A stretch of 64,000 bases of DNA. Source: Actinomyces oris. GTDB taxonomy: Bacteria; Actinomycetota; Actinomycetes; Actinomycetales; Actinomycetaceae. The position numbers and the translations under genes are program-made. The notes below the pieces were generated by a model. It did not search any database. It worked only from the letters and a program-made list of their open reading frames with translations, and was not told the origin of the DNA. Positions 3,799 to 16,656 of the stretch are shown one piece after another (positions within the stretch are counted from its first letter, which is position 1; the number at the start of each line of letters is the position of its first letter). Location of the stretch: the NCBI RefSeq assembly GCF_001937665.1, contig NZ_MSKL01000019.1, forward strand, positions 1-64,000, read 5' to 3'.

Positions 3799-4914
3799 AT
3801 GAGTCAGCCCGAAAGGCGGGCCATACCCGTCCTGTCCGTCATGGACATGGTCCCCGTCAGCGCCGGATGCAGCCGCACCGACGCCCTCACCGACATGATC
3901 GCCCTCGCTCGAGCCGCCGACGCCGCCGGCTACGAGCGCTACTGGTTGGCCGAGCACCACGGCTCCGCCACCTACCTCTCCTCGGCGACCATCGTCCTCA
4001 TGGGGCAGGTCCTGGCCGCCACCGAGCGCCTGGGTGTCGCCTCCGGTGGGATCATGCTGCCCAACCATGCCCCGCTCGTCGTCGCCGAGCAGATCGGAAC
4101 CCTGGCCACCCTCTACCCAGGCCGGGTCGAGCTGGGACTGGGGCGGGCCCCGGGCACCGACCGGCGCACGGCCGCCGCGCTGCGCCGAGGGGCCTCCGAC
4201 CCGGGACACTTCGCCGAGGAGATCCTCGAGATCCTCACCTACCTCGGTGACGAGCCCGTACCGGAACGGGTCCCCGGATCCCTCCTCCTGGGCGCCCCCG
4301 GCGTTCCCGACGACGCCGTCCAGACACCCGATCCCGACGGCCCCCGGGTGCGGGCCATCCCGGGGGAGGGCACCCACCCGAACGTCTGGGTGCTCGGCTC
4401 CTCCGTCAACGGGGCGCGTGTGGCCGGCCGGCTCGGACTGCCCTTCGCCGTCGCCTCGCACTTCGCCCCGGTCCAGGCCGAGGCGGCCATCGCCACCTAC
4501 CGCTCCGTCCTCGAGTCCAGGACGGAGGACGCCCAAGGACACCAAGGCGCGCCGGGTGCTCCGCGGGTCGCGGCCGCCGTCAACGTCATGGTGGCTCCCA
4601 GCCAGGAGGAGGCCCGCCTGCTGTTCAGCACCGCCATGGCCGCCGCCGCCCGTATCGTCGGCAATCGGCCCGGCCCGCTCGACTCACCCAGCGAGGACCC
4701 GCAGGCCTGGCGCGCCTACGCGCCCGGCAGGGAGGGCGCCGTCGAGGCGGCCATGTCCCTGTCCTTCGTCGGGACGGCCGACGACGTCGCCGCCCGCCTG
4801 CGTGAGCAGGCCGCCCGGTGGGACCTCGACGAGATCCTCGTGGTCACCTACGCCCACGACCCGGCCCTGCGGCGCCGCTCCTACGAGTTGCTCGCCCAGG
4901 CCTGGACCGCCTGA
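3799..4914 (+). CDS. LLM class flavin-dependent oxidoreductase
   Basis: The 371-residue protein belongs to the bacterial luciferase-like monooxygenase superfamily, the MsnO8/YhbW-like branch that uses reduced flavin supplied by a partner reductase. Typical motifs are YERYWLAEHH, GGIMLPNHAPLVVAEQ and RVELGLGRAPGTD, followed by the late FVGTADDVAARLRE segment that closes the TIM barrel. The start at 3799 follows a leaderless promoter box and gives the usual family length. It is separated from bioY by a hairpin and appears to be a single-gene unit. The substrate is not known, and no flavin reductase gene lies nearby. Confidence 0.88.
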   Translation: MSQPERRAIPVLSVMDMVPVSAGCSRTDALTDMIALARAADAAGYERYWLAEHHGSATYLSSATIVLMGQVLAATERLGVASGGIMLPNHAPLVVAEQIGTLATLYPGRVELGLGRAPGTDRRTAAALRRGASDPGHFAEEILEILTYLGDEPVPERVPGSLLLGAPGVPDDAVQTPDPDGPRVRAIPGEGTHPNVWVLGSSVNGARVAGRLGLPFAVASHFAPVQAEAAIATYRSVLESRTEDAQGHQGAPGAPRVAAAVNVMVAPSQEEARLLFSTAMAAAARIVGNRPGPLDSPSEDPQAWRAYAPGREGAVEAAMSLSFVGTADDVAARLREQAARWDLDEILVVTYAHDPALRRRSYELLAQAWTA

Positions 4915-4983: not shown

Positions 4984-5078
4984 CCCCGCCTATGGGCGGC
5001 GCCTGAGCCCCTCAGTGCGCCGGAAACCCCCTGATCCAGTGACGAATCCCAGTCGGTTCCATGCCCCATGGAGGTCGC

Positions 5079-6704
5079 ATGAACAACGCCCTGACAGTGT
5101 CGCGCCGTGGCTTCGGGCTCGGCGCGGCCGCCTTCGGCCTGCTCCTGGTCTCAGGATGCTCGCGCGGATCGAGCTCGACAGGAGGCGGACTGGGCAGCGG
5201 CAGCGGCAAGCTGACCCTGGCCTACAACTCCGACGGTCCTCACAAGACCTGGGCCGAGGCCGTGTGCCACTCGGTGTCCAACGTCCTGGGCATCACCATG
5301 GAGCCCCTACCGGTGGCCCAGTTCTCCGAGATGCGTTCCGCCATCACCAAGCACACCCTCCTGGGCGCCTTCCGCAGCGGCTGGTTGGCCGACTACCCCT
5401 CACTGGAGAACTTCCTCAACGCCACCTTCCAGACCGGTGCCGGCGCGAACGACTCCCAGTACTCCTCGAAGGCCTTCGACGACCTCCTGGCCCAGGCGGC
5501 GGGCGCCACCGATCCCCAGACCGCCTACGGCTACTTCCGCCAGGCCCAGTCCCAGCTCTTCGCCGACCTGCCCGGTATCCCGCTGTGGTACCAGAACGGG
5601 ATCGGCGGCTACTCCCGCAACGCCTCCAACGTCGACTTCAACTGGACCGGTATCCCGGTATACGAGGAGGCCCGCTCCAGCGCCAACGACGGCGTCATCC
5701 TGGCCAATCTCTCCGAGCCGCAGAACTCCTTGCTGCCCACCAACACCAATGAGTCCAACGGTGGGCGGGTCCTCGACCTGATCTACGCCGGCCTGATCCG
5801 CTACGACAAGGACGGCAACGTCATCAACGAGGTGGCCTCCTCCATCGAGACCAAGGACAACCAGCATTACACGATCACCCTCAAACCGGGCTGGACCTTC
5901 TCCGACGGCAGCCCGGTGACATCCGACTCCTTCATCAAGGCCTGGAAGTTCGGCGCCCTGCTGTCCAACGCCCAGCTCGGCTCCTCCTTCTTCGAGAGGA
6001 TCAAGGGATTCTCCTACGACGAGGACTCCGAGCTGACGGGGCTGACCAAGGTGGACGACCTCACCTTCACGGTCGAGCTGAACGCCCCGGCGTCGGACTT
6101 CAAGATCAGCCTGGGGCACTACGCCTACTATCCGATGCCGGAATCCGCCTTCAAGGACCCCAAGGCATACGGCGCCAAGCCCGTGGGCAACGGCCCCTAC
6201 CGGCTCGTCTCCTGGGACCACGACAGCCGGATCGTCCTGGAGCCCAACCCCGCCTACGCCGGCGGGCGAACCGTGGCGAACAAGGGCATCACCTTCAAGC
6301 TGTACACGAGCTTGGACTCGGTCTACAACGACTTGCTCGCCGATGCCATCGACATCACTGACGGAGTCCCCGACTCCTTCCTGCCCATCTTCCAGAAGCA
6401 GCTGGGCGAGCGTGCCATCAACAAGCCGGCCGCATACTTCCAGGGACTCGCCATCGACGTCACCCACGAGCACTGGAAGATGGACGAGGAAGGGCGCGCC
6501 CGCCGCGCCGCCATCTGCCGGGCCATCGACCGCAAGCTCATCTGCGACAAGCTCTACTACGGCACCCGCACGCCCGCCAAGGACTTCACCGCTCCCACCG
6601 TTGTGGGCTGGACGCCGGATGTCCCGGGCAACGAGGTTCTCACCTACGACCCGGACGAGGCCAGACGCCTGTGGGCCAAGGCCGAGGCCATCTCCAAGTT
6701 CTGA
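5079..6704 (+). CDS. oligopeptide ABC transporter substrate-binding lipoprotein, circularly permuted
   Basis: This is a cluster-C (SBP_bac_5/OppA-type) solute-binding lipoprotein for the importer encoded just downstream. The signal has a twin-arginine motif SRRGFGL and lipobox VSGC (Cys27). What follows is out of order. Residues about 44-198 carry blocks normally found at the C-terminus of this family (LTLAYNSDGPHKTW, GAFRSGWLADYPSLENF, LPGIPLWYQNG, FNWTGIPVYEEA). Residues about 199-541 then carry the normal N-terminal and middle blocks (GVILANLSEPQNSLLPTNTN, YTITLKPGWTFSDGSPVTSD, VGNGPYRLVSWDHDS), ending at WAKAEAISKF. Joining end to start restores the standard order with almost nothing missing, so the whole fold appears present but permuted. 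The start at 5079 has GGAGG four bases upstream. Family is certain; permutation is read directly from block order. Confidence 0.9.
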   Translation: MNNALTVSRRGFGLGAAAFGLLLVSGCSRGSSSTGGGLGSGSGKLTLAYNSDGPHKTWAEAVCHSVSNVLGITMEPLPVAQFSEMRSAITKHTLLGAFRSGWLADYPSLENFLNATFQTGAGANDSQYSSKAFDDLLAQAAGATDPQTAYGYFRQAQSQLFADLPGIPLWYQNGIGGYSRNASNVDFNWTGIPVYEEARSSANDGVILANLSEPQNSLLPTNTNESNGGRVLDLIYAGLIRYDKDGNVINEVASSIETKDNQHYTITLKPGWTFSDGSPVTSDSFIKAWKFGALLSNAQLGSSFFERIKGFSYDEDSELTGLTKVDDLTFTVELNAPASDFKISLGHYAYYPMPESAFKDPKAYGAKPVGNGPYRLVSWDHDSRIVLEPNPAYAGGRTVANKGITFKLYTSLDSVYNDLLADAIDITDGVPDSFLPIFQKQLGERAINKPAAYFQGLAIDVTHEHWKMDEEGRARRAAICRAIDRKLICDKLYYGTRTPAKDFTAPTVVGWTPDVPGNEVLTYDPDEARRLWAKAEAISKF

Positions 6705-6723: not shown

Positions 6724-7653
6724 ATGCTTCGCTACGTCGCACGCAGGCTGCTGCAGATGGTCCCGGTGTTCTTCGGTGCCACGCTGCTCATCTACGCCAT
6801 GGTCTTCGCCCTGCCGGGCGACCCGATCGCCGCTCTCGGGGGCCAGCGCTCGCTCAGCCCCGAGGTGATCGACCAGATCAAGGCCAGCTACCACCTCGAC
6901 AAGCCCTTCATCGTCCAGTACCTGCTCTACCTCAAGGGGCTGTTCACCCTGGACCTGGGCCAGTCGCTGCGGGGGACCGAGTCCGTCCTCGACGTGCTGG
7001 TGCGGGCCTACCCGATCACCATCAAGCTCTCCCTCATGGCCCTGGCCTTCGAGGCCGTCGCGGGCATCGGCTTCGGCCTCGTCGCCGGGGTGAGGAAGGG
7101 CGGCTGGTTCGACGCCACCGTCCTGGTGCTCTCCCTGGTGGTCATCGCCGTGCCCACCTTCGTCATCGGCTTCGTCCTGCAGTTCATCATCGGGGTCCGC
7201 CTGGGATGGCTGCCGGTCACCGCCGGTGAGAGCCCCGGCTTCACCGAGCTCCTCATGCCGGCCATGGTGCTGGGCGCTGTCTCCTTCGCCTACGTGCTGC
7301 GCCTGACCCGCACTGAGGTGGCCGAGAACCTCACCGCCGACCACGTGCGCACCGCCCGGGCCAAGGGCCTGAGCGGGGCCCGTGTCATGATCGTCCACGT
7401 CCTGCGCAACTCCCTGGTCCCGGTCGTCACCTTCCTGGGCGCGGACCTGGGGGCCCTCATGGGCGGCGCCATCGTCACCGAGGGCATCTTCAACATCAAG
7501 GGCGTGGGAGGCACCCTCTACTCCGCCATCATCCGCGGCGACGGACCCATGGTCGTGTCCTTCACGACTGTGCTCGTGCTCGTCTTCATCGTCTCCAACC
7601 TCCTGGTGGACCTGCTCTACGCCGCCCTGGACCCGAGGATCCGCTATGCCTGA
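6724..7653 (+). CDS. oligopeptide ABC transporter permease (OppB/DppB type)
   Basis: This 309-residue integral membrane permease has the OppB layout: an N-terminal helix (VARRLLQMVPVFFGATLLIYAMV), a periplasmic-side loop with GDPIAALGG and FTLDLGQSLRG, then five further membrane segments. The EAA-type coupling loop DHVRTARAKGLSG contacts the ATPase. It pairs with the OppC-type permease, whose start overlaps its stop by eight bases, and together they form the channel fed by the permuted binding protein encoded 19 bp upstream. The ATG at 6724 follows a purine-rich GAAGAAGGA site. Peptide specificity cannot be read from the sequence. Confidence 0.93.
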   Translation: MLRYVARRLLQMVPVFFGATLLIYAMVFALPGDPIAALGGQRSLSPEVIDQIKASYHLDKPFIVQYLLYLKGLFTLDLGQSLRGTESVLDVLVRAYPITIKLSLMALAFEAVAGIGFGLVAGVRKGGWFDATVLVLSLVVIAVPTFVIGFVLQFIIGVRLGWLPVTAGESPGFTELLMPAMVLGAVSFAYVLRLTRTEVAENLTADHVRTARAKGLSGARVMIVHVLRNSLVPVVTFLGADLGALMGGAIVTEGIFNIKGVGGTLYSAIIRGDGPMVVSFTTVLVLVFIVSNLLVDLLYAALDPRIRYA

Positions 7654-8605
7654 GAACAACACGTCCCCCACCACCCGCCCGGGCCAGGAGCGCTTCGTCA
7701 TCGCCGACGACGAGATCGGCCTGGGGGCCGTCGACGCCGTCGCCGACGAGTCCGCTCCGGCCTCCGTCTGGGTCGACGCCTGGAGGCAGCTGCGCCGTCG
7801 GCCCATCTTCTGGGTGGCCTCGGTGCTCATCGCCGTGGCCGTGGCCTTCTCCCTCGTTCCCGGGCTCTTCGCCCCGCGCGACCCCGGCTACTGCACGCTG
7901 GTCAACTCCTACCAGGGGCCCTCCTGGGGCCACCCCTTCGGATTCGACATCCAGGGCTGCGACATCTTCGCCCGTACCGTTCACGGGGCCCGTGCCTCGG
8001 TGAGCGTGGGCATCTTCACCACCCTCGTCGTGGTCCTCGTCGGCTCGGCCGTCGGGGCCCTGGCCGGGTTCTTCGGCGGCTTCTTCGACGCGCTGCTCTC
8101 GCGCGTCACCGACATCTTCTTCGCCGTGCCCTTCGTCCTGGCCGCCATCGTCGTCATGCAGATGTTCCGCAACGACCGTTCGATCCTCACCGTCATCCTG
8201 GTCCTGGCCCTGTTCGGCTGGCCCCAGATCGCCCGCATCACGCGAGGCTCGGTCATGAGCGTCAAGAACGAGGACTACGTGACCGCCTCACGCGCCTTGG
8301 GCTCAGGACGCATGGCCATGCTGCTGCGCCACGTCATGCCCAACGCCGCCGCCCCCATCATCGTGACCGCCACCGTCGAGCTCGGCGTCTTCATCGTCTC
8401 GGAGGCCACCTTGAGCTTCCTGGGCATCGGGCTGCCGTCCTCGGTCGTCTCCTGGGGCGCGGACATCGCGGCCGCCAAGGACGCTCTCAACAGCCACCCG
8501 AGCGTCCTGCTCTTCCCCGCCGGCGCACTGGCCCTGACCGTGCTCGGCTTCATCATGCTCGGCGACGTCGTCCGCGACGCCCTGGACCCGAAGGCCCGCA
8601 AGTGA
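7646..8605 (+). CDS. oligopeptide ABC transporter permease (OppC/DppC type)
   Basis: The 319-residue protein is the second permease subunit. It has the OppC-type N-terminal extension before the first helix, then the short conserved segment HPFGFDIQGCDIFARTVHGARAS. The coupling loop EDYVTASRALGSGRMAMLLRH and the family ending LGDVVRDALDPKAR are present. It overlaps the OppB-type gene by eight bases, and the following ATPase gene by four, so translation is probably coupled along the operon. The periplasmic loop is longer than in many OppC proteins because of a YCTLVNSYQGPSWG insert. Function as a peptide importer subunit is by family. Confidence 0.92.
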   Translation: MPENNTSPTTRPGQERFVIADDEIGLGAVDAVADESAPASVWVDAWRQLRRRPIFWVASVLIAVAVAFSLVPGLFAPRDPGYCTLVNSYQGPSWGHPFGFDIQGCDIFARTVHGARASVSVGIFTTLVVVLVGSAVGALAGFFGGFFDALLSRVTDIFFAVPFVLAAIVVMQMFRNDRSILTVILVLALFGWPQIARITRGSVMSVKNEDYVTASRALGSGRMAMLLRHVMPNAAAPIIVTATVELGVFIVSEATLSFLGIGLPSSVVSWGADIAAAKDALNSHPSVLLFPAGALALTVLGFIMLGDVVRDALDPKARK

Positions 8606-10449
8606 CACCCTCCAACGCATCCACCGCCACCGCCTCAGGCGCCTCCGACAAGACCTTCGCCCCCGCGGCCTCCTGGAGCGCCGAGAACGACCCCCTCCTG
8701 GAGATCAGGGACCTGGAGGTCGCCTTCCGCTCCTCGACCGGGCTCGTGCCGGCCGTGCGCAAGGCGAACCTGACCCTCTACCCCGGCCAGTCCGTGGCCA
8801 TCGTCGGGGAGTCGGGCTCGGGCAAGTCCACCCTGGCCCATGCCGTCATCGGGCTGCTGCCCGGAACCGGTCGGGTCACCGGCGGCACGATCCGCTTCCA
8901 GGGCCGCGACATCACCCACCTGGGCACCCAGGAGCTCACCGCCCTGCGCGGCTCCTCCATCGGACTGGTGCCCCAGGACCCCATGTCCAACCTCAACCCG
9001 GTGTGGTCCATCGGCTTCCAGGTCAAGGAGGCGCTGCGGGCCAATGGACTGGCCGGCGTCGCCGACGACCGCCTCGCCAACCTCATGGCCGAGCACACCG
9101 AACACGCCGGCGAGGCCCGGAAGCCGGCACCTTCGGCCGGCGGGCACATCGACGTCAACGAGCAGGTGGCCCTTCTGCTGGAGCAGGCCGGTCTGCCCGA
9201 GGCCTCCCGGCGGGCCAAGCAGTACCCCCACGAGTTCTCCGGCGGGATGCGCCAGCGCGCCCTCATCGCCATCGGCCTGGCCGCACGCCCCGACCTGCTC
9301 ATCGCCGATGAGCCCACCAGCGCCCTGGACGTCACCGTCCAGCGACGCATCCTCGACCACCTCCAGACCCTCGTGCGCGAGCTGGGCACCGCGATGCTCT
9401 TCATCACCCACGACCTGGGGCTGGCCGCCGAGAGGGCCGAGCACATCGTCGTCATGCACCGCGGCCGGGTCGTCGAGTCCGGACCCAGCCTCGAGGTGCT
9501 CCAGGACCCCCGCCACCCCTACACCCAGCGTCTGGTCAAGGCCGCCCCCTCCTTGGCCTCCCGGCGCATCGAGTCCGCCCACGCCCGCGGCATCCAGGTC
9601 ACCGACGACGAGCTCCTGGGCGCCAGCCTGGGATCGAGCTCCACCGAGGAGATCCTGCGCGTGGAGCACCTCACCAAGGTCTTCGAGGTGCGCGGCGCCA
9701 AGGGGAAGGACAAGACCCTCACCGCCGTCGACGACGTCAGCTTCGGTATCCGCAAGGGCACGACGACTGCGCTCGTGGGAGAGTCCGGTTCCGGCAAGTC
9801 CACGGTCGCCAACATCATCCTCAACCTCATCGACCCCACCTCCGGCAAGGTGTTCCACGGCGGGGTGGACCTGTCCACCCTGGGCCCCAAGGAACTCTTC
9901 GCCCTGCGGCGCATCATGCAGCCGGTCTTCCAGAACCCCTACGGGTCCCTGGACCCGATGTACTCGATCTTCCGCGTCGTCGAGGAACCGCTGAGGGTCC
10001 ACGGGATCGGCACCGCCAAGGAGCGCGAGGCGCGCGTCGCCGAGCTGCTCGACATGGTCTCCCTGCCGCGCTCGGTCATGCGCCGCTACCCCCATGAGCT
10101 CTCCGGCGGACAGCGCCAGCGCGTCGCCATCGCCCGGGCCCTGGCCCTCAAGCCGGAGATCGTCGTGCTCGACGAGGCGGTCTCCGCCCTGGACGTGCTG
10201 GTCCAGGCCCAGATCCTGCGCCTGCTGTCCGACCTGCAGGCCGAGCTGGAGCTGACCTACCTGTTCATCACCCACGACCTGGCCGTCGTGCGCCAGATCG
10301 CCGACGACGTCGTCGTCATGGAGCACGGGCGGATCGTGGAGGCCGGGGCGGCCGACGAGCTCTTCGCCGATCCGCGCCAGGACTACACCCGTGAGCTGAT
10401 CCGGGCCGTTCCCGGGGCCGGCATCGACCTCTACGGAGATGAGAAATGA
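8602..10449 (+). CDS. oligopeptide ABC transporter, fused two-domain ATP-binding protein (OppD-OppF type)
   Basis: This 615-residue cytoplasmic ATPase powers the importer encoded upstream. Two complete ABC domains are fused. Domain 1 has Walker [10 protein letters not shown] near residue 72, Q loop VPQDPMSNLNP, signature FSGGMRQRA, Walker B LLIADEPTSALD and switch ITHDLG. Domain 2 has Walker [10 protein letters not shown] near residue 394, VFQNPYGSLDP, signature LSGGQRQRV, Walker B VVLDEAVSALD (Ala replaces the usual Pro) and ITHDLAVV. An insert of about 20 residues (HAGEARKPAPSAGGHIDV) separates the Q loop and signature in domain 1. It starts at a GTG overlapping the permease stop and ends just before a strong terminator, closing the operon. 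Confidence 0.93.
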   Translation: MTPSNASTATASGASDKTFAPAASWSAENDPLLEIRDLEVAFRSSTGLVPAVRKANLTLYPGQSVAIVGESGSGKSTLAHAVIGLLPGTGRVTGGTIRFQGRDITHLGTQELTALRGSSIGLVPQDPMSNLNPVWSIGFQVKEALRANGLAGVADDRLANLMAEHTEHAGEARKPAPSAGGHIDVNEQVALLLEQAGLPEASRRAKQYPHEFSGGMRQRALIAIGLAARPDLLIADEPTSALDVTVQRRILDHLQTLVRELGTAMLFITHDLGLAAERAEHIVVMHRGRVVESGPSLEVLQDPRHPYTQRLVKAAPSLASRRIESAHARGIQVTDDELLGASLGSSSTEEILRVEHLTKVFEVRGAKGKDKTLTAVDDVSFGIRKGTTTALVGESGSGKSTVANIILNLIDPTSGKVFHGGVDLSTLGPKELFALRRIMQPVFQNPYGSLDPMYSIFRVVEEPLRVHGIGTAKEREARVAELLDMVSLPRSVMRRYPHELSGGQRQRVAIARALALKPEIVVLDEAVSALDVLVQAQILRLLSDLQAELELTYLFITHDLAVVRQIADDVVVMEHGRIVEAGAADELFADPRQDYTRELIRAVPGAGIDLYGDEK

Positions 10450-10576: not shown

Positions 10577-10714
10577 TATCCATCGAGTTTCATGCGACAG
10601 GTATTGTGACCCCATTCATTTGTTCGTACACGGTGTCACCTCCAACGCCGCCAGGTGCGCCTGCTGCGGGCCAGTGATCCTTGCACCGGTGGGTTGTCCG
10701 AAGGAGGAGAACGC

Positions 10715-11674
10715 ATGCTCCCGTACCTGGCGCGCCGGATCGCGAACTACGCGGTCCTGCTATTCATCGCCACGTCGTTGGCCTATCTGTTGGCCTCGGC
10801 CTCCCTGGATCCCTCGGCCCTGTGGAACCGCCAGGACCCATCTCTCAACTGGGACGCCATTCACGCCAACCTCGTCAAGTACAACATCAGCCACGACCTG
10901 CCCGTGTGGGACCGCTACGTCACCTGGCTGCGCAACGTCGTCCTCCACTGGGACTGGGGCCGCACCCCCAAGGGTGAGCTCATCAACACCCTCATCGGCA
11001 CCAAGATCTTCGTCTCAGTGCGGCTGGTGTTCCTGGGCGCCGCCATCGGCATGGTCGGGGGAGTGGCCCTGGGGGCCTGGACCGCCACGCGCCAGTACCG
11101 CTTCTCCGACCGCGCGATCTCCCTGATCTCCATGATCATCATCTCCACCCCCGCCATGGTCATCGCGATCCTCCTGCAGGTCCTGGCCGTTCAGATCAAC
11201 CGCTCCTCCGGCTACCAGATCTTCGAGTTCACCGGTGAGGGGGAGGGCGCCCTCGGTCGCCTCCAGCACCTTCTGCTTCCCACCTTGTCGATGTCGCTGG
11301 GCGGTATCGCCTCCTACTCCCGCTTCCAGCGCAACCTCATGCTCGACACCCTGGGGGCCGACTACGTGCGCACCGCCCGAGCCAAGGGCCTCGTCAAGCG
11401 CAAGGCGCTGACCCGCCACGCGCTGCGCACCGCGCTCATCCCCATGGCCACCTACTTCGCATTCGCCCTGGCCACCCTGTTCACCGGCGCCGCCATCACC
11501 GAGCGGGTCTACGGCTGGCACGGCATGGGCGAGTACTCCATCAGTGCGATCTCCGGCATGGACATCAACGGGGTGACGGCCGTCGTCGCCTTCTCCGGGC
11601 TGTGCACCCTCACTGGTGCGCTCCTGTCCGATGTCTTCGTGGCGATCGTCGACCCGAGAGTGAGGGTGAGCTGA
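10715..11674 (+). CDS. oligopeptide ABC transporter permease (OppB/DppB type), second system
   Basis: This 319-residue permease opens the second importer operon. It shows the OppB N-terminal helix (LARRIANYAVLLFIATSLAYLL), a periplasmic region with HWDWGRTPKGELIN, and the coupling loop ADYVRTARAKGLVKRKAL. The C-terminus VAIVDPRVRVS is typical. The ATG at 10715 is preferred over an upstream in-frame GTG because AAGGAGG lies eight bases before it. The periplasmic loop following helix 1 is unlike that of the first system, so the two importers probably differ in peptide preference. The next permease gene begins three bases downstream. Confidence 0.92.
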   Translation: MLPYLARRIANYAVLLFIATSLAYLLASASLDPSALWNRQDPSLNWDAIHANLVKYNISHDLPVWDRYVTWLRNVVLHWDWGRTPKGELINTLIGTKIFVSVRLVFLGAAIGMVGGVALGAWTATRQYRFSDRAISLISMIIISTPAMVIAILLQVLAVQINRSSGYQIFEFTGEGEGALGRLQHLLLPTLSMSLGGIASYSRFQRNLMLDTLGADYVRTARAKGLVKRKALTRHALRTALIPMATYFAFALATLFTGAAITERVYGWHGMGEYSISAISGMDINGVTAVVAFSGLCTLTGALLSDVFVAIVDPRVRVS

Positions 11675-11677
11675 TCC

Positions 11678-12691
11678 ATGGCGCGCAACGCTGAACCCAA
11701 TGGGATGGCCTCCATCGGCAAGCAGATGACGGTGGGCGGCTACGCCGCCGTCGAGCAGGGCGGGGAGGCCCCGCTGAGCCCCGAGGACCTGGGCGACATC
11801 ACCAAGGAGACCCCCAGGGACTCCCGGCGTCTGACCCGCAGGCAGATCATCACCCGGCGCTTCTGGCGCAACAAGGGGGCCGTCGTCGGCGCGGTCGGCT
11901 TCCTGGTCATGGTGCTCTTCGCGCTCTTCGGCGACGCCGTGACCCCCTGGACCTTCACCGACGTCGACTCCTCCGCCTTCCTCCAGGCCCCCAGCGCCGA
12001 TCACTGGTTCGGCACCACCCAGGGCGGCCGTGACGTCTACGCGATGGTGGTGGAGGGCACCCGCAAGTCCATGATGATCGGCGTCTTCGTCGCCCTGCTT
12101 CAGACGGGCGTCGCCGCCGTCATCGGCTCCTCTGCCGCCTACTTCGGCGGCTGGTGGGAGAAGATCGCCCTGTGGGCCACCGACCTGCTCCTGGTGGTCC
12201 CCTCCTTCCTCATCATCGCGATCCTCTCCCAGCGTGCCGGAGCCGCCAAGGGCTCCATCGCACTGTTCATCATCCTCCTGGCCGGCTTCGGCTGGATGCT
12301 CACGGCCCGCGTGGTGCGTTCCCTGACCCTGAGCGTGAAGAACCTGGAGTACGTCAACGCCGCCCGGTTCATGAACGTGCCCAGTCCCGTCATCATCGCG
12401 CGCCACATCCTGCCCAACATCGCCTCTCTGCTCATCGTCGACGCCACCATCAACGTTGCCTACGCCGTCATCAGCGAGACGACGCTGTCCTACTTCGGCT
12501 TCGGGGTCCAGCCGCCCAACACCTCCCTGGGCACCCTCATCGCAGAAGGGCAGCGCTCGGCGACCACCTACCCCTGGATCTTCCTGGCCCCGGCAGCCGT
12601 GCTCGTCCTCATGCTCCTGTGCGTCAACGTCATGGGTGACGGTCTGCGCGATGCCATCGACCCCTCGTCCAAGTCCGGAGGCAAGGCATGA
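11678..12691 (+). CDS. oligopeptide ABC transporter permease (OppC/DppC type), second system
   Basis: The 337-residue OppC-type subunit begins with a long hydrophilic N-terminus of about 65 residues. The first helix ([19 protein letters not shown]) follows, then the conserved [19 protein letters not shown] segment, and four more membrane spans. The coupling loop [20 protein letters not shown] is present. The ending [14 protein letters not shown] is diagnostic of this permease class. It overlaps the downstream ATPase gene by four bases (ATGA). Assignment to peptide import is by family and operon. Confidence 0.92.
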
Positions 12692-14895
12692 CTCCCACGA
12701 GCAGCTCCAGCACGTCCACCGAGGCCACGAAGAGCACCGCGGCCGTTCCCGCCGTCGACGCCAGAAGCACCGACGACGCGCTCCCGGACCCCTCCAGCAC
12801 CGCCCCGCTGCTGGAGGTCGCCGACCTGCAGGTCTCCTTCCCCTCCGAGGACGGGCGCGTCAACGCCGTGCGCGGAGTCAACCTGTCAGTCGCACGCGGT
12901 GAGGTGCTGGCCCTGGTCGGCGAGTCCGGCTCGGGCAAGTCCGTCACCTCCACGGCGGTCATGGGCCTGCTCGACGAGTCCGCCGAGGTCACCGGGTCGG
13001 TGCGCCTCCACGGCACCGAGCTGCTGGGGCGGCCCGACGGCTACATGTCCCGCATTCGCGGCTCCCAGATCGCCATGGTCTTCCAGGACCCGCTCAGCGC
13101 CCTGACCCCCGTGTACACGGTGGGCGCCCAGATCGTCGAGGCCCTGCGGATCCACCATCCCGAGATGAGCGAGGCGGACGCCCACAAGCGCGCCGTCGAG
13201 CTGCTCGACCTGGTGGGCATCCCCAACCCGCAGGTGCGTGCCAAGGCCTACCCCCACGAGTTCTCCGGCGGCATGCGCCAGCGGGCCGTCATCGCGATCG
13301 CGATCGCCAACGACCCCGATCTCATCATCGCCGACGAGCCCACCACGGCTCTCGACGTCACCATCCAGGCCCAGATCCTCGACGTGCTGCGCACCGCCCA
13401 GAAGGAGACCGGTGCCGGCGTCATCATGATCACCCACGACCTGGGGGTCGTGGCCGGTATGGCCGACCGGGTGGCCGTCATGTACGCGGGGCGCATCGTG
13501 GAGACCGGCGACGTCGACGACATCTTCTACCGCTCGCGCATGCCCTACACGATCGGCCTGCTCGGCTCCCTGCCCCGTCTGGACGCGCGCAAGGACTCGG
13601 CCCTGGCCACCCTCGAGGGCAACCCGCCCTCGCTGCTGGAGCTGCCCCGAGGGTGCCCCTTCATCCCCCGCTGCCCCATGGCCCAGGCCGAGTGCGCCCA
13701 GGGAGAGCCGGAGCTCGCCCTCGTGGAGCGCGGCGGGGCCGACGGCGAGGAGGCCGGCTCCGGCGCCCAGTACTCGGCCTGCCGCCGCCGCGATGAGATC
13801 GAGCGGGACCAGCTCGACTACTCCCACATCTACCCCGTCCCGGCTCTCAAGACCGCCGAGACCATGAGCCTGCCGCATGCCGAGCGCCCCGAGGTCCTGC
13901 GCGTCACCGACCTCGTCAAGGAGTTCCCCCTCATGAAGGGAGCCGTCTTCAAGAGGCGCGTGGGCACCGTCCACGCCGTCGACGGCGTCTCCTTCGACGT
14001 CCGCCGGGGCGAGACCCTGGCCCTGGTCGGCGAGTCCGGCTGCGGCAAGACCACCACCCTCATGGAGGTCCTCTCCCTCCAGGCGCCCCAGGAGGGCAGG
14101 ATCGTGGTCCTGGGCAAGAACACGGCTGACCTGGGGCGGGCCGAGCGTCGCCAGGTGCGCCGCGACCTGCAGATCGTCTTCCAGGACCCCATGGCCTCCC
14201 TGGACCCGCGCCTGCCGATCTTCGACATCATCGCCGAGCCGCTGCGGGCCAACGGCTGGAAGAAGGCGGACATCGGGCCGCGCATCGAGGAGCTCATGGA
14301 GCTCGTCGGGCTCGAGCCCAGTCACGCCAACCGCTACCCGCGCAACTTCTCCGGCGGGCAGCGTCAGCGCATCGGCATCGCCCGCGCCCTGGCCCTCGAA
14401 CCCAGTCTCCTGGTCCTCGACGAGCCGGTCTCCGCCCTGGACGTGTCCATCCAGGCCGGCGTCATCAACCTGCTCGACGAGCTTCGCGCCACCATGGGGC
14501 TCAGCTACCTCTTCGTGGCCCACGACCTGTCAGTGGTGCGCCACATCGCCGACCGCGTCGCCGTCATGTACCTGGGGCGGATCGTGGAGATCGGCGATGT
14601 CGACACCATCTTCGAGGCCCCGGCCCACCCCTACACCCAGGCCCTGCTCTCGGCGATCCCCATCCCGGACCCGGCCAAGGAGCGCGGTCGCAGCCGCATC
14701 GTCCTGGAGGGCGACCTGCCCAGCCCCGCCAACCCGCCCTCGGGTTGCCGCTTCCGCACCCGCTGCCCGAAGTTCGTCACAGGACTCACCGACGACGAGC
14801 GCTCGGCCTGCCTGGGAGCCATGCCGGAGTTCCTCTCCCAGGGCGAGGACCACGAGGTCGCCTGCTACTACCCCGAGCGCACGGCGGTCTTCTGA
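12688..14895 (+). CDS. oligopeptide ABC transporter, fused two-domain ATP-binding protein, second system
   Basis: This 735-residue protein fuses two OppD/OppF-like ATPase domains, each with its C-terminal oligopeptide-transport extension. Domain 1: Walker [21 protein letters not shown], signature [29 protein letters not shown], then the cysteine-rich tail [15 protein letters not shown]. Domain 2: [49 protein letters not shown], then [11 protein letters not shown] with further cysteines. The retained CxxxxxRCP tails, which in characterised relatives can hold an Fe-S cluster, distinguish it from the shorter fused ATPase of the first system. It lies between its permeases and the binding-protein gene. 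Confidence 0.93.
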
Positions 14896-14988: not shown

Positions 14989-16656
14989 ATGAAGCTCAAC
15001 CGCCGCATGTTCCTCGCCACGACGACCTCCGCGGCCGTCCTGACCGCCCTGGCTGCCTGCGCCAAGAACGGCTCCGGCTCCTCGGGCTCCACCGCCGGCG
15101 TGCCCACCGCCGCCCCCGACGAGCTCCAGGACGGGGGCACGCTGCGCTTCGGCATCGGCTCGGCGCCGGCGAACTGGAACGCCGTGACCGTGGACGGCAA
15201 CATCGTCGACATGTGGCTGATCATGAAGTTCGTCTCCCCCTTCACCGTCGACTGGGCCGCGGACGGCAAGGCGACACCGAACCCCGACTTCCTCACCAAG
15301 CTCGAGGCCGCGGAGGTCGGCGGCAAGACCGTGGTCACCGTGGCCATCAACGAGAAGGCCACCTGGGGCAATGGGCGCAAGTGGGACTCCGAGGACATCA
15401 AGGTGTTCTTCGACCATGTCAAGGACCCCAGCTACTCCTGGGCCACCGTCGAGGGACTCGACAAGGTCGAGAAGGTCGAGATCGTGGACAAGCAGACCGC
15501 CAAGGTCACCTTCAACTCGGTCTACCCCGACTGGTCCTACCCCTTGGCCGGCATCACCCCCAGGGAGCTCATGGCCGACGCCAAGACCTTCAACGAGTCG
15601 ATGGCCGGCGCCACCAAGTTCAACAACGACTACTTCGCCGGCCCCTTCAAGATCAAGAGCTACGACGAGTCCAAGCAGGTCATCACCCTGGAGCGCAACG
15701 ACAAGTGGTGGGGCGCCACCCCCAAGCTCGAGACCGTCACCCTGCACGTCCTGGATGACTCGGCCTTGGGACAGGCCTTCGCCAACAAGGAGATCGACGT
15801 CCTGGACTACATCTTCTCCGCCGACGTCTACCAGCAGGCCAGTGGCCGCGACGATGCCGAGGTCCGCCAGAACACCGGCCTGCAGTGGCGTCACATCATG
15901 TTCAACGCCTCCTCCGGTCCTCTGGCGGACAAGGCCGTGCGTCAGGCCATTGTCCGGGCCTGCAACCGCGAGGCCATTGCGGCCTCCGACCTGGCGGGTC
16001 TGCCCGTGGACGCCAAGAAGGTTCTCCTGGGCAACCGCTTCTTCCTGCCCGTCCAGGAGGGCTACCAGGACAACTCCACCAGCTGGGGCCACGACGTCGA
16101 GGCCGCCAAGAAGCTGCTCGACGGCGCCGGCTGGGTGGCCGGCTCCGACGGCGTGCGCGCCAAGGACGGCAAGAAGCTCGAGCTGGTGATCACCATCCCC
16201 TCCAACGCCCCGGTGGCCACCAACGAGGCCAACCTCCTCCAGAAGCAGCTGAACGAGGTCGGCATCAAGCTCAGTGTCTCCACGGTCGAGATCGACAAGT
16301 ACTTCCCGGAGTACATCAACAAGAAGAATTACGCACTGACGGTCTTCACCGGCGAGAAGACCCAGTACCCCCTGGCCAACACGGGTCAGTACTACGCCTC
16401 GACCAGCCAGTCGAATTACACCGGACTGTCCGTCCCCGAGGTCGACCAGTACGTCGCCAAGATCGGCTCGACCCCCGACGGCGCCGAGCGTAACAAGCTC
16501 GCCAACGAGCTCGACAAGGTCCTGTGGGAGAACGTCTTCAGCATCCCGATCTACCAGCGCATGCAGCTGACCGCCGTGCCCAAGACGCTGCGCAACTTCG
16601 GCGCCCAGGGGCTGGCCTCCTTCCGGCCCGAGAGCATCGGCTACGTCAAGAGCTGA
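14989..16656 (+). CDS. oligopeptide ABC transporter substrate-binding lipoprotein, second system
   Basis: This 555-residue cluster-C solute-binding lipoprotein serves the second importer. The signal carries a twin-arginine-like motif NRRMFLA and a lipobox LAAC. The mature part has the family blocks in normal order: GTLRFGIGSAPANWN, FVSPFTVDWAADGK, WGNGRKWDSEDIKVFF, then AGPFKIKSYDESKQV, VRQAIVRACNRE and the C-terminal ENVFSIPIYQR. It thus gives a useful contrast with the permuted binding protein of the first system. The gene follows its ATPase by 93 bp; GGAG lies eight bases before the ATG. It ends the operon. Confidence 0.92.
   Translation: MKLNRRMFLATTTSAAVLTALAACAKNGSGSSGSTAGVPTAAPDELQDGGTLRFGIGSAPANWNAVTVDGNIVDMWLIMKFVSPFTVDWAADGKATPNPDFLTKLEAAEVGGKTVVTVAINEKATWGNGRKWDSEDIKVFFDHVKDPSYSWATVEGLDKVEKVEIVDKQTAKVTFNSVYPDWSYPLAGITPRELMADAKTFNESMAGATKFNNDYFAGPFKIKSYDESKQVITLERNDKWWGATPKLETVTLHVLDDSALGQAFANKEIDVLDYIFSADVYQQASGRDDAEVRQNTGLQWRHIMFNASSGPLADKAVRQAIVRACNREAIAASDLAGLPVDAKKVLLGNRFFLPVQEGYQDNSTSWGHDVEAAKKLLDGAGWVAGSDGVRAKDGKKLELVITIPSNAPVATNEANLLQKQLNEVGIKLSVSTVEIDKYFPEYINKKNYALTVFTGEKTQYPLANTGQYYASTSQSNYTGLSVPEVDQYVAKIGSTPDGAERNKLANELDKVLWENVFSIPIYQRMQLTAVPKTLRNFGAQGLASFRPESIGYVKS

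Follow-up and report, generated by a model that had tools for sequence, protein, structure and literature searches.

The binding protein encoded by the gene under study in the window (the whole stretch of 64,000 nucleotides of Actinomyces oris that was analysed) is circularly permuted, as sequence comparison shows, and very probably serves as the functional peptide-binding lipoprotein of a DppA(B)(C)(DF) importer. The same change has very probably recurred independently among actinomycete DppA genes, mostly at a single preferred site and in one case at another. The coordinates of the gene, its segments and its neighbours are given in Table 1.

Table 1. Features of the permuted binding-protein gene and its neighbourhood in the window.
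Feature	Positions	Strand	Evidence or remarks
Gene of circularly permuted DppA/OppA-type peptide-binding lipoprotein	5079..6704	+	541 aa; single ORF
Residues 1–43: presumed Tat-like signal SRRGFGL, presumed lipobox VSGC (Cys27), Gly/Ser linker	5079..5207	+	sequence
Residues 44–198: displaced C-terminal part of ordinary DppA	5208..5672	+	aligns with 7jls 378–534; carries W102 and D105
Residues 199–541: N-terminal portion of ordinary DppA; its last residues, AISKF, mark the cut	5673..6701	+	aligns with 7jls 27–376; Pfam SBP_bac_5
Joint of old C-terminus with old N-terminus, residues about 189–212, WTGIPVYEEARSSANDGVILANLS	5643..5714	+	joint-length pattern across permuted proteins
Presumed DppB-type permease	6725..7653	+	ORF; homologue 3' of binding-protein genes of ordinary and permuted order
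Presumed DppC-type permease	7646..8605	+	ORF and locus comparison
Presumed fused DppD-DppF-type ATPase	8602..10449	+	ORF and locus comparison
Presumed luciferase-like monooxygenase gene (luxA); upstream conserved neighbour, synteny marker	3799..4914	+	ORF and locus comparison

The open reading frame list holds an in-frame ATG at 5061, a possible earlier start of this gene. The protein opens with what we take to be a Tat-like signal and a lipobox, and after the Gly/Ser linker KLTLAYNSDGPHKTW begins at residue 44. The initial annotation, made from the letters alone, had read the segment after the linker as the blocks that end ordinary OppA-type proteins and the rest as those that begin them, and alignment with a solved relative bore this out. 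In a phmmer search against PDB sequences, residues 203–540 matched residues 27–376 of Mycobacterium tuberculosis DppA (7jls; i-E 5e-107) and residues 42–198 matched residues 378–534 of the same chain (i-E 8.9e-33); together the two blocks span nearly the whole mature chain, and the matches are far past chance. Pfam SBP_bac_5 (PF00496) scored 200.2 bits against a cut-off of 32.4, residues 248–536 corresponding to profile positions 2–277 of 368, and the NCBIfam matches were family 5 peptide/nickel binding models, mainly over the second block. The domain of the SBP_bac_5/cluster C proteins is complete and its ordinary N-to-C order is absent, the blocks being exchanged. Both segments are homologous to one relative, their order is exchanged and the arrangement is fixed in nature, as a natural permutation is defined; on its sequence, the protein is a permuted variant of this family.

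The cut was compared in ten Actinomyces and 17 other permuted genes. With the exception of G1125, their chains end after AI.(P)F/W (AI.PF/PW) and restart before F.IAYN, so that the new termini fall where ordinary proteins link a helix to a beta strand by about two residues. At this point the ordinary protein of genome G019 reads AISPF-SG-SFTIAYN, and the window protein ends AISKF and starts SG-KLTLAYN; no residue need be missing on end-to-start joining, where the loss of two or three had been supposed. In M. tuberculosis DppA numbering the cut maps (by our own alignment) to about residue 381, in the C-terminal half of the protein, the hinge helix being formed by residues 250–266 (PMC6751184), and this half would correspond at the cut to the second lobe. 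The joint of the old ends, measured from a conserved Trp to an EP motif, was 22–24 residues long in all permuted proteins that matched the pattern (23 of the 27), and the sequence TKADG occurs there in permuted proteins of both family f19 and family f8. All examined permuted genes share the same cut site with one exception, that of G1125, where the cut falls about 54 residues later (start AFRTGWQ, end ..FAGLRTEVND plus a short tail); this second site comes from one draft genome. G1202, its sole congener in the data set, has the ordinary order and reads FAGLRTEVNDRTITAAFRTGWQ. A truncated-looking binding-protein-like ORF (L088:121-1197) lies directly upstream of the G1125 permuted gene.

Cognate permease and ATPase genes for the permuted protein are present immediately downstream of it (Table 1). 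The assembly from which the window comes is a draft in 46 contigs; searched as a whole, it gave the permuted gene and one 26% paralogue piece, in agreement with the earlier remark that neither half is duplicated nearby. The window also contains a second, ordinary-looking family 5 binding-protein ORF (14989–16656), placed after a second permease/ATPase set (10655–14895), so that two transporters adjoin.

The order of the two halves was determined in Actinomyces by placing each half separately. Matches at E≤1e-30 were obtained in 34 of the 49 genomes searched, 29 of them permuted and five ordinary (G010, G019, G025, G029 and G034), and the other 15 gave no match at this threshold. Each ordinary gene is a single open frame, as are 24 of the 29 permuted ones, and several of the 29 genomes with the permuted order consist of one contig. 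A scan of named genomes, all already counted among the 49, found seven loci 91–96% identical over residues 1–541, in three strains of A. oris, A. johnsonii, A. naeslundii, oral taxon 170 and strain ZJ308. These closest relatives are permuted alike, so that neither ground for refutation named in the initial annotation, an assembly error or close relatives in ordinary order with identical flanks, holds. The ordinary congeners are 56–62% identical to the window protein in the N half and 53–58% in the C half. With the blocks exchanged on 7jls, the same order in 29 of 49 related genomes and the transport operon following, the claim of a naturally permuted OppA-type binding protein stands.

Both orders occupy a similar locus. 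The order luxA-binding protein-permB-permC-ATPase is common to ordinary G019 and G034 and to permuted genomes such as G033, G045, G022 and G030 (11–14 kb read). In ordinary G010, G025 and G029 permB-permC-ATPase also follow and luxA is absent from the fetched stretch, giving the three transport genes 3' of the binding-protein gene in five of five ordinary congeners and luxA 5' in two of five. The 29 permuted Actinomyces proteins fall into a single clade (100/100) of the binding-protein tree, and in the permB tree the 26 usable permB sequences that accompany permuted genes likewise group together. The existence of ordinary congeners, two with the same gene order, dates the permutation within the history of Actinomyces and does not refute it. 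In the rest of the family, 103 of 164 genomes matched; among the matches listed, which give the best row for 99 of the 103 (all but G067, G159, G182 and G184), every best row starts no earlier than query residue 176, in keeping with the ordinary order.

Outside Actinomyces, four actinomycete families (f8, f19, f20 and f45) also contain permuted DppA, in 15 genomes, with the permuted order of all 17 genes confirmed by half placement; by sequence, this recurrence goes beyond what the initial annotation saw. The searches used a joint-spanning probe (residues 98–311) at overlapping levels of order, class, phylum and family, with thresholds that would miss distant permutants. Spanning rows were obtained in 10 of 396 genomes at the order level (six Actinomyces plus G276, G443, G395 and G342), in 3 of 394 at the class level (E≤1e-42; the own genome, G276 and G807) and in 1 of 198 at the phylum level (the own genome). 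By family, they appeared in 4 of 249 genomes of f19, 8 of 200 of f8, 2 of 18 of f20 and 1 of 81 of f45, where 15 others gave N-part rows only. Since linear profile searches match part of permuted proteins, others may be overlooked. Genome G342 carries three divergent permuted copies (L062, L063 and L064; 39–48% identity to the window N half), and the stretches fetched around L063 and L064 gave no match to a permease.

Trees were built after both halves of each protein had been set into the ordinary order. Five order changes were counted in the 53-row tree (21 permuted), four of them forced by starred branches; five, with four forced, in the 71-row tree (30 permuted; quick method); and five, all forced by well-supported branches, in the 49-row tree (19 permuted), where none of 200 bootstrap trees had one change only. 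The 49 rows were hand-chosen from 73 at hand, contain 7 of the 29 Actinomyces permuted genes and omit long-branch rows such as G342b, G342c, G230, G212, G141, G124 and G048; the 53-row tree includes these and the 71-row tree omits only G342c. The five changes are those of Actinomyces, of f8 with or without f20, of G276/G1177/G1236 in f19, of G807 in f45 and of G1125 in f19. In the 49-row tree the Actinomyces permuted genes stand beside their own ordinary congeners, and G1125 beside G1202. G276/G1177/G1236 neighbour two ordinary members of their family, G315 and G528, the latter sharing genus g61 with G276; G807 lies within ordinary f45, and f8 and f20 make up a further permuted grouping. The backbone is partly weak, and f20 shifts between the 53-row and 49-row trees.

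The N-half tree gave four order changes (three forced) and the C-half tree five (three forced). A half-swap, in which a foreign C half was put in front, was rejected for Actinomyces, both of whose permuted halves group with the ordinary Actinomyces proteins in these trees; beyond this genus the test is clear only for f19 and f45, and there in just one of the two halves. The C half of G276 had no firm placement, and G395 groups with its own family in the C half only (95/79, then 95/29).

We read the permuted DppA genes as the outcome of several independent events. From these trees, actinomycete DppA would likely be a hot spot of recurrent permutation, with at least five independent order changes, a strongly preferred cut site besides a second one, and both orders occurring inside single genera, and selection for relocating the anchor may be reflected in it. 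A different history, which we consider unlikely, is that a single permutation spread by horizontal transfer and that conversion from resident ordinary copies made the permuted genes resemble their host lineages. The same cut in all examined genes but one would fit such an origin, which stays alive as a rival through the resemblance of f19 and f8 at the joint (TKADG) and the raised similarity of f19 at the cut: across 30 alignment columns there, permuted f19 proteins are 85–86% similar to the permuted ones of other lineages versus 73–77% to the ordinary ones of their own, as one origin followed by conversion would predict. Similarity in f19 is also raised at the C end. However, the AU test rejected one permuted clade (p 4.6e-6, lnL 203 lower; 53-row set) as well as the pairs Actinomyces plus f19 (p 1.9e-5) and f19 plus f8 (p 0.008), the Actinomyces permuted proteins cluster in either half with their ordinary congeners, and G1125 is cut elsewhere and has an ordinary congener. 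Conversion also needs a permuted and a close ordinary copy in one genome at some time, and no genome with such a pair was found among the loci read.

Recurrent permutation of DppA probably proceeded by duplication and trimming. The likely route would be an in-frame tandem duplication, after which the leading N part was lost and a stop codon arose within the trailing C part. In the sequence, a short peptide joins the old termini, and the new ends lie between helix and strand, in what is the second half of ordinary DppA. The permuted chain is predicted to fold into the ordinary two-lobed shape and to bind peptides in the same pocket as ordinary DppA, and the lipid anchor would have moved from the first lobe to the second. 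Because the permutation recurs, the data suggest that the cut site tolerates new ends and that re-siting of the anchor is at least neutral. Origin by tandem duplication and trimming had been put forward in the initial annotation. Relatives do carry tandem ordinary copies, three in G080 (L055:3674-9014) and two in G212 (L058:3174-6981), which are the raw material that this route needs, but no fused or half-trimmed intermediate was seen among the loci examined. Remnants of the lost halves were absent from the 700 bases downstream and up to 1300 bases upstream of 25 permuted genes, where matches had E 0.32 or weaker; the sole stronger match (E 0.007, upstream of G1125) lies inside a separate binding-protein-like ORF. 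Fission and fusion, by which the halves would have been separate genes for a time and then rejoined in the other order, is, like duplication, an established model of circular permutation (PMC3320104). We hold it to be improbable for DppA, where the halves occur as separate genes in no locus read, broken copies aside, and tandem duplicates do exist.

It is very unlikely that the permuted order is ancestral in the subfamily, with repeated returns to the ordinary one. Midpoint rooting puts the permuted genes of f20 in a basal position in the 53-row and 71-row trees, but they are not basal in the 49-row tree, and there the permuted genes of f19, f45 and G1125 fall inside ordinary clades, so that several gains of the permuted order would be needed anyway; among the matches listed, the solved relatives, two M. 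tuberculosis DppA entries, all have the ordinary order. An assembly or annotation artefact, to which the draft state of the own genome and the single draft genome behind the G1125 cut might point, has a negligible probability given the 29 genomes of the same order, their one-contig members and open frames, and was already refuted for the window gene by relatives permuted alike.

Among known systems, M. tuberculosis DppA (Rv3666c; PDB 7jls, 6e4d and 8wd9) is orthologous to the window protein over both blocks, with the pocket Trp and Asp matched, and differs from it in its ordinary order. The ordinary Actinomyces DppA proteins share similar sequence and the permB-permC-ATPase genes but are unpermuted. 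A naturally permuted, tethered ABC binding lipoprotein has been described in Treponema pallidum, TpMglB-2 (Tp0684; 'Type Ic / Cluster Bc'), with homologues in Gram-positive bacteria (PMC4990184). TpMglB-2 is a cluster B sugar-binding protein permuted in the N lobe, the rearranged segment and its counterpart are just 13% identical, and recurrence is not among the features reported in the available part of that work (PMC4990184). Assignment of the window protein to the TpMglB-2 type was rejected, since its Pfam and NCBIfam matches are to family 5 peptide/nickel binding proteins. Among the matches listed from the open-licence literature, no natural permutation was found in family 5, and TpMglB-2 was the sole case of an ABC binding protein; the earlier remark that none is described holds for this family, although a permuted binding protein of another cluster had already been published (PMC4990184). 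Exchanged order, with duplication and fission-fusion models, is also known from saposin/swaposin, DNA methyltransferases and transhydrogenases (PMC3320104). DppA differs from these classical cases, as far as the available part of that review describes them, in having both orders at the same locus in one genus and one site that recurs across families.

Most of the natural circular permutations known are ancient one-time events whose intermediates have disappeared, whereas DppA offers both orders at one locus in one genus. Its seeming recurrence across several families, around the same peptide bond, would supply natural replicates with before-and-after pairs, from which one may ask why the site tolerates or favours new termini, how bacterial genomes yield permutations and whether docking on the permease changes with the anchor on the other lobe. 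Recurrence, if true, may reflect selection for tethering the protein by its second lobe instead of its first.

Both halves of the permuted gene are under purifying selection. Between the window gene and six relatives dN/dS was 0.12–0.21 in the N half and 0.17–0.32 in the C half; other permuted pairs gave 0.17–0.52, one pair standing at 0.52, and ordinary pairs 0.12–0.38. The pocket residues W442 and D445 of M. tuberculosis DppA (PMC6751184) correspond by hand mapping to W102 and D105 of the window protein, and the motif [GS]W..DYP is kept by 29 of the 31 permuted rows, by 40 of the 41 ordinary ones and by 26 of the 29 Actinomyces permuted proteins. Haem binding as in M. tuberculosis DppA is unsupported, as the haem-binding R179 (PMC6751184) maps by hand to S344. 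An AlphaFold model from an alignment of seven rows only (the window protein and six relatives, the frameshifted L007 omitted) had a pLDDT of 31.9, too low for the model to be of use.

Five of the 29 Actinomyces copies are broken, those of G002, G015, G022 and G030 by frame breaks and that of G045 by an insertion; some breaks are perhaps sequencing errors, and others sit in single-contig genomes. In G015 (L048) and G048 (L053) the permuted gene is kept beside luxA and no permB occurs in the 5–7 kb downstream, the G015 copy being also one of the broken ones. The broken copies and these two loci without permease indicate that the permuted gene is dispensable in some genomes. The insertion in G045 (L049:6238-7387) contains a 356-amino acid transposase-like ORF on the strand opposite to the permuted gene.
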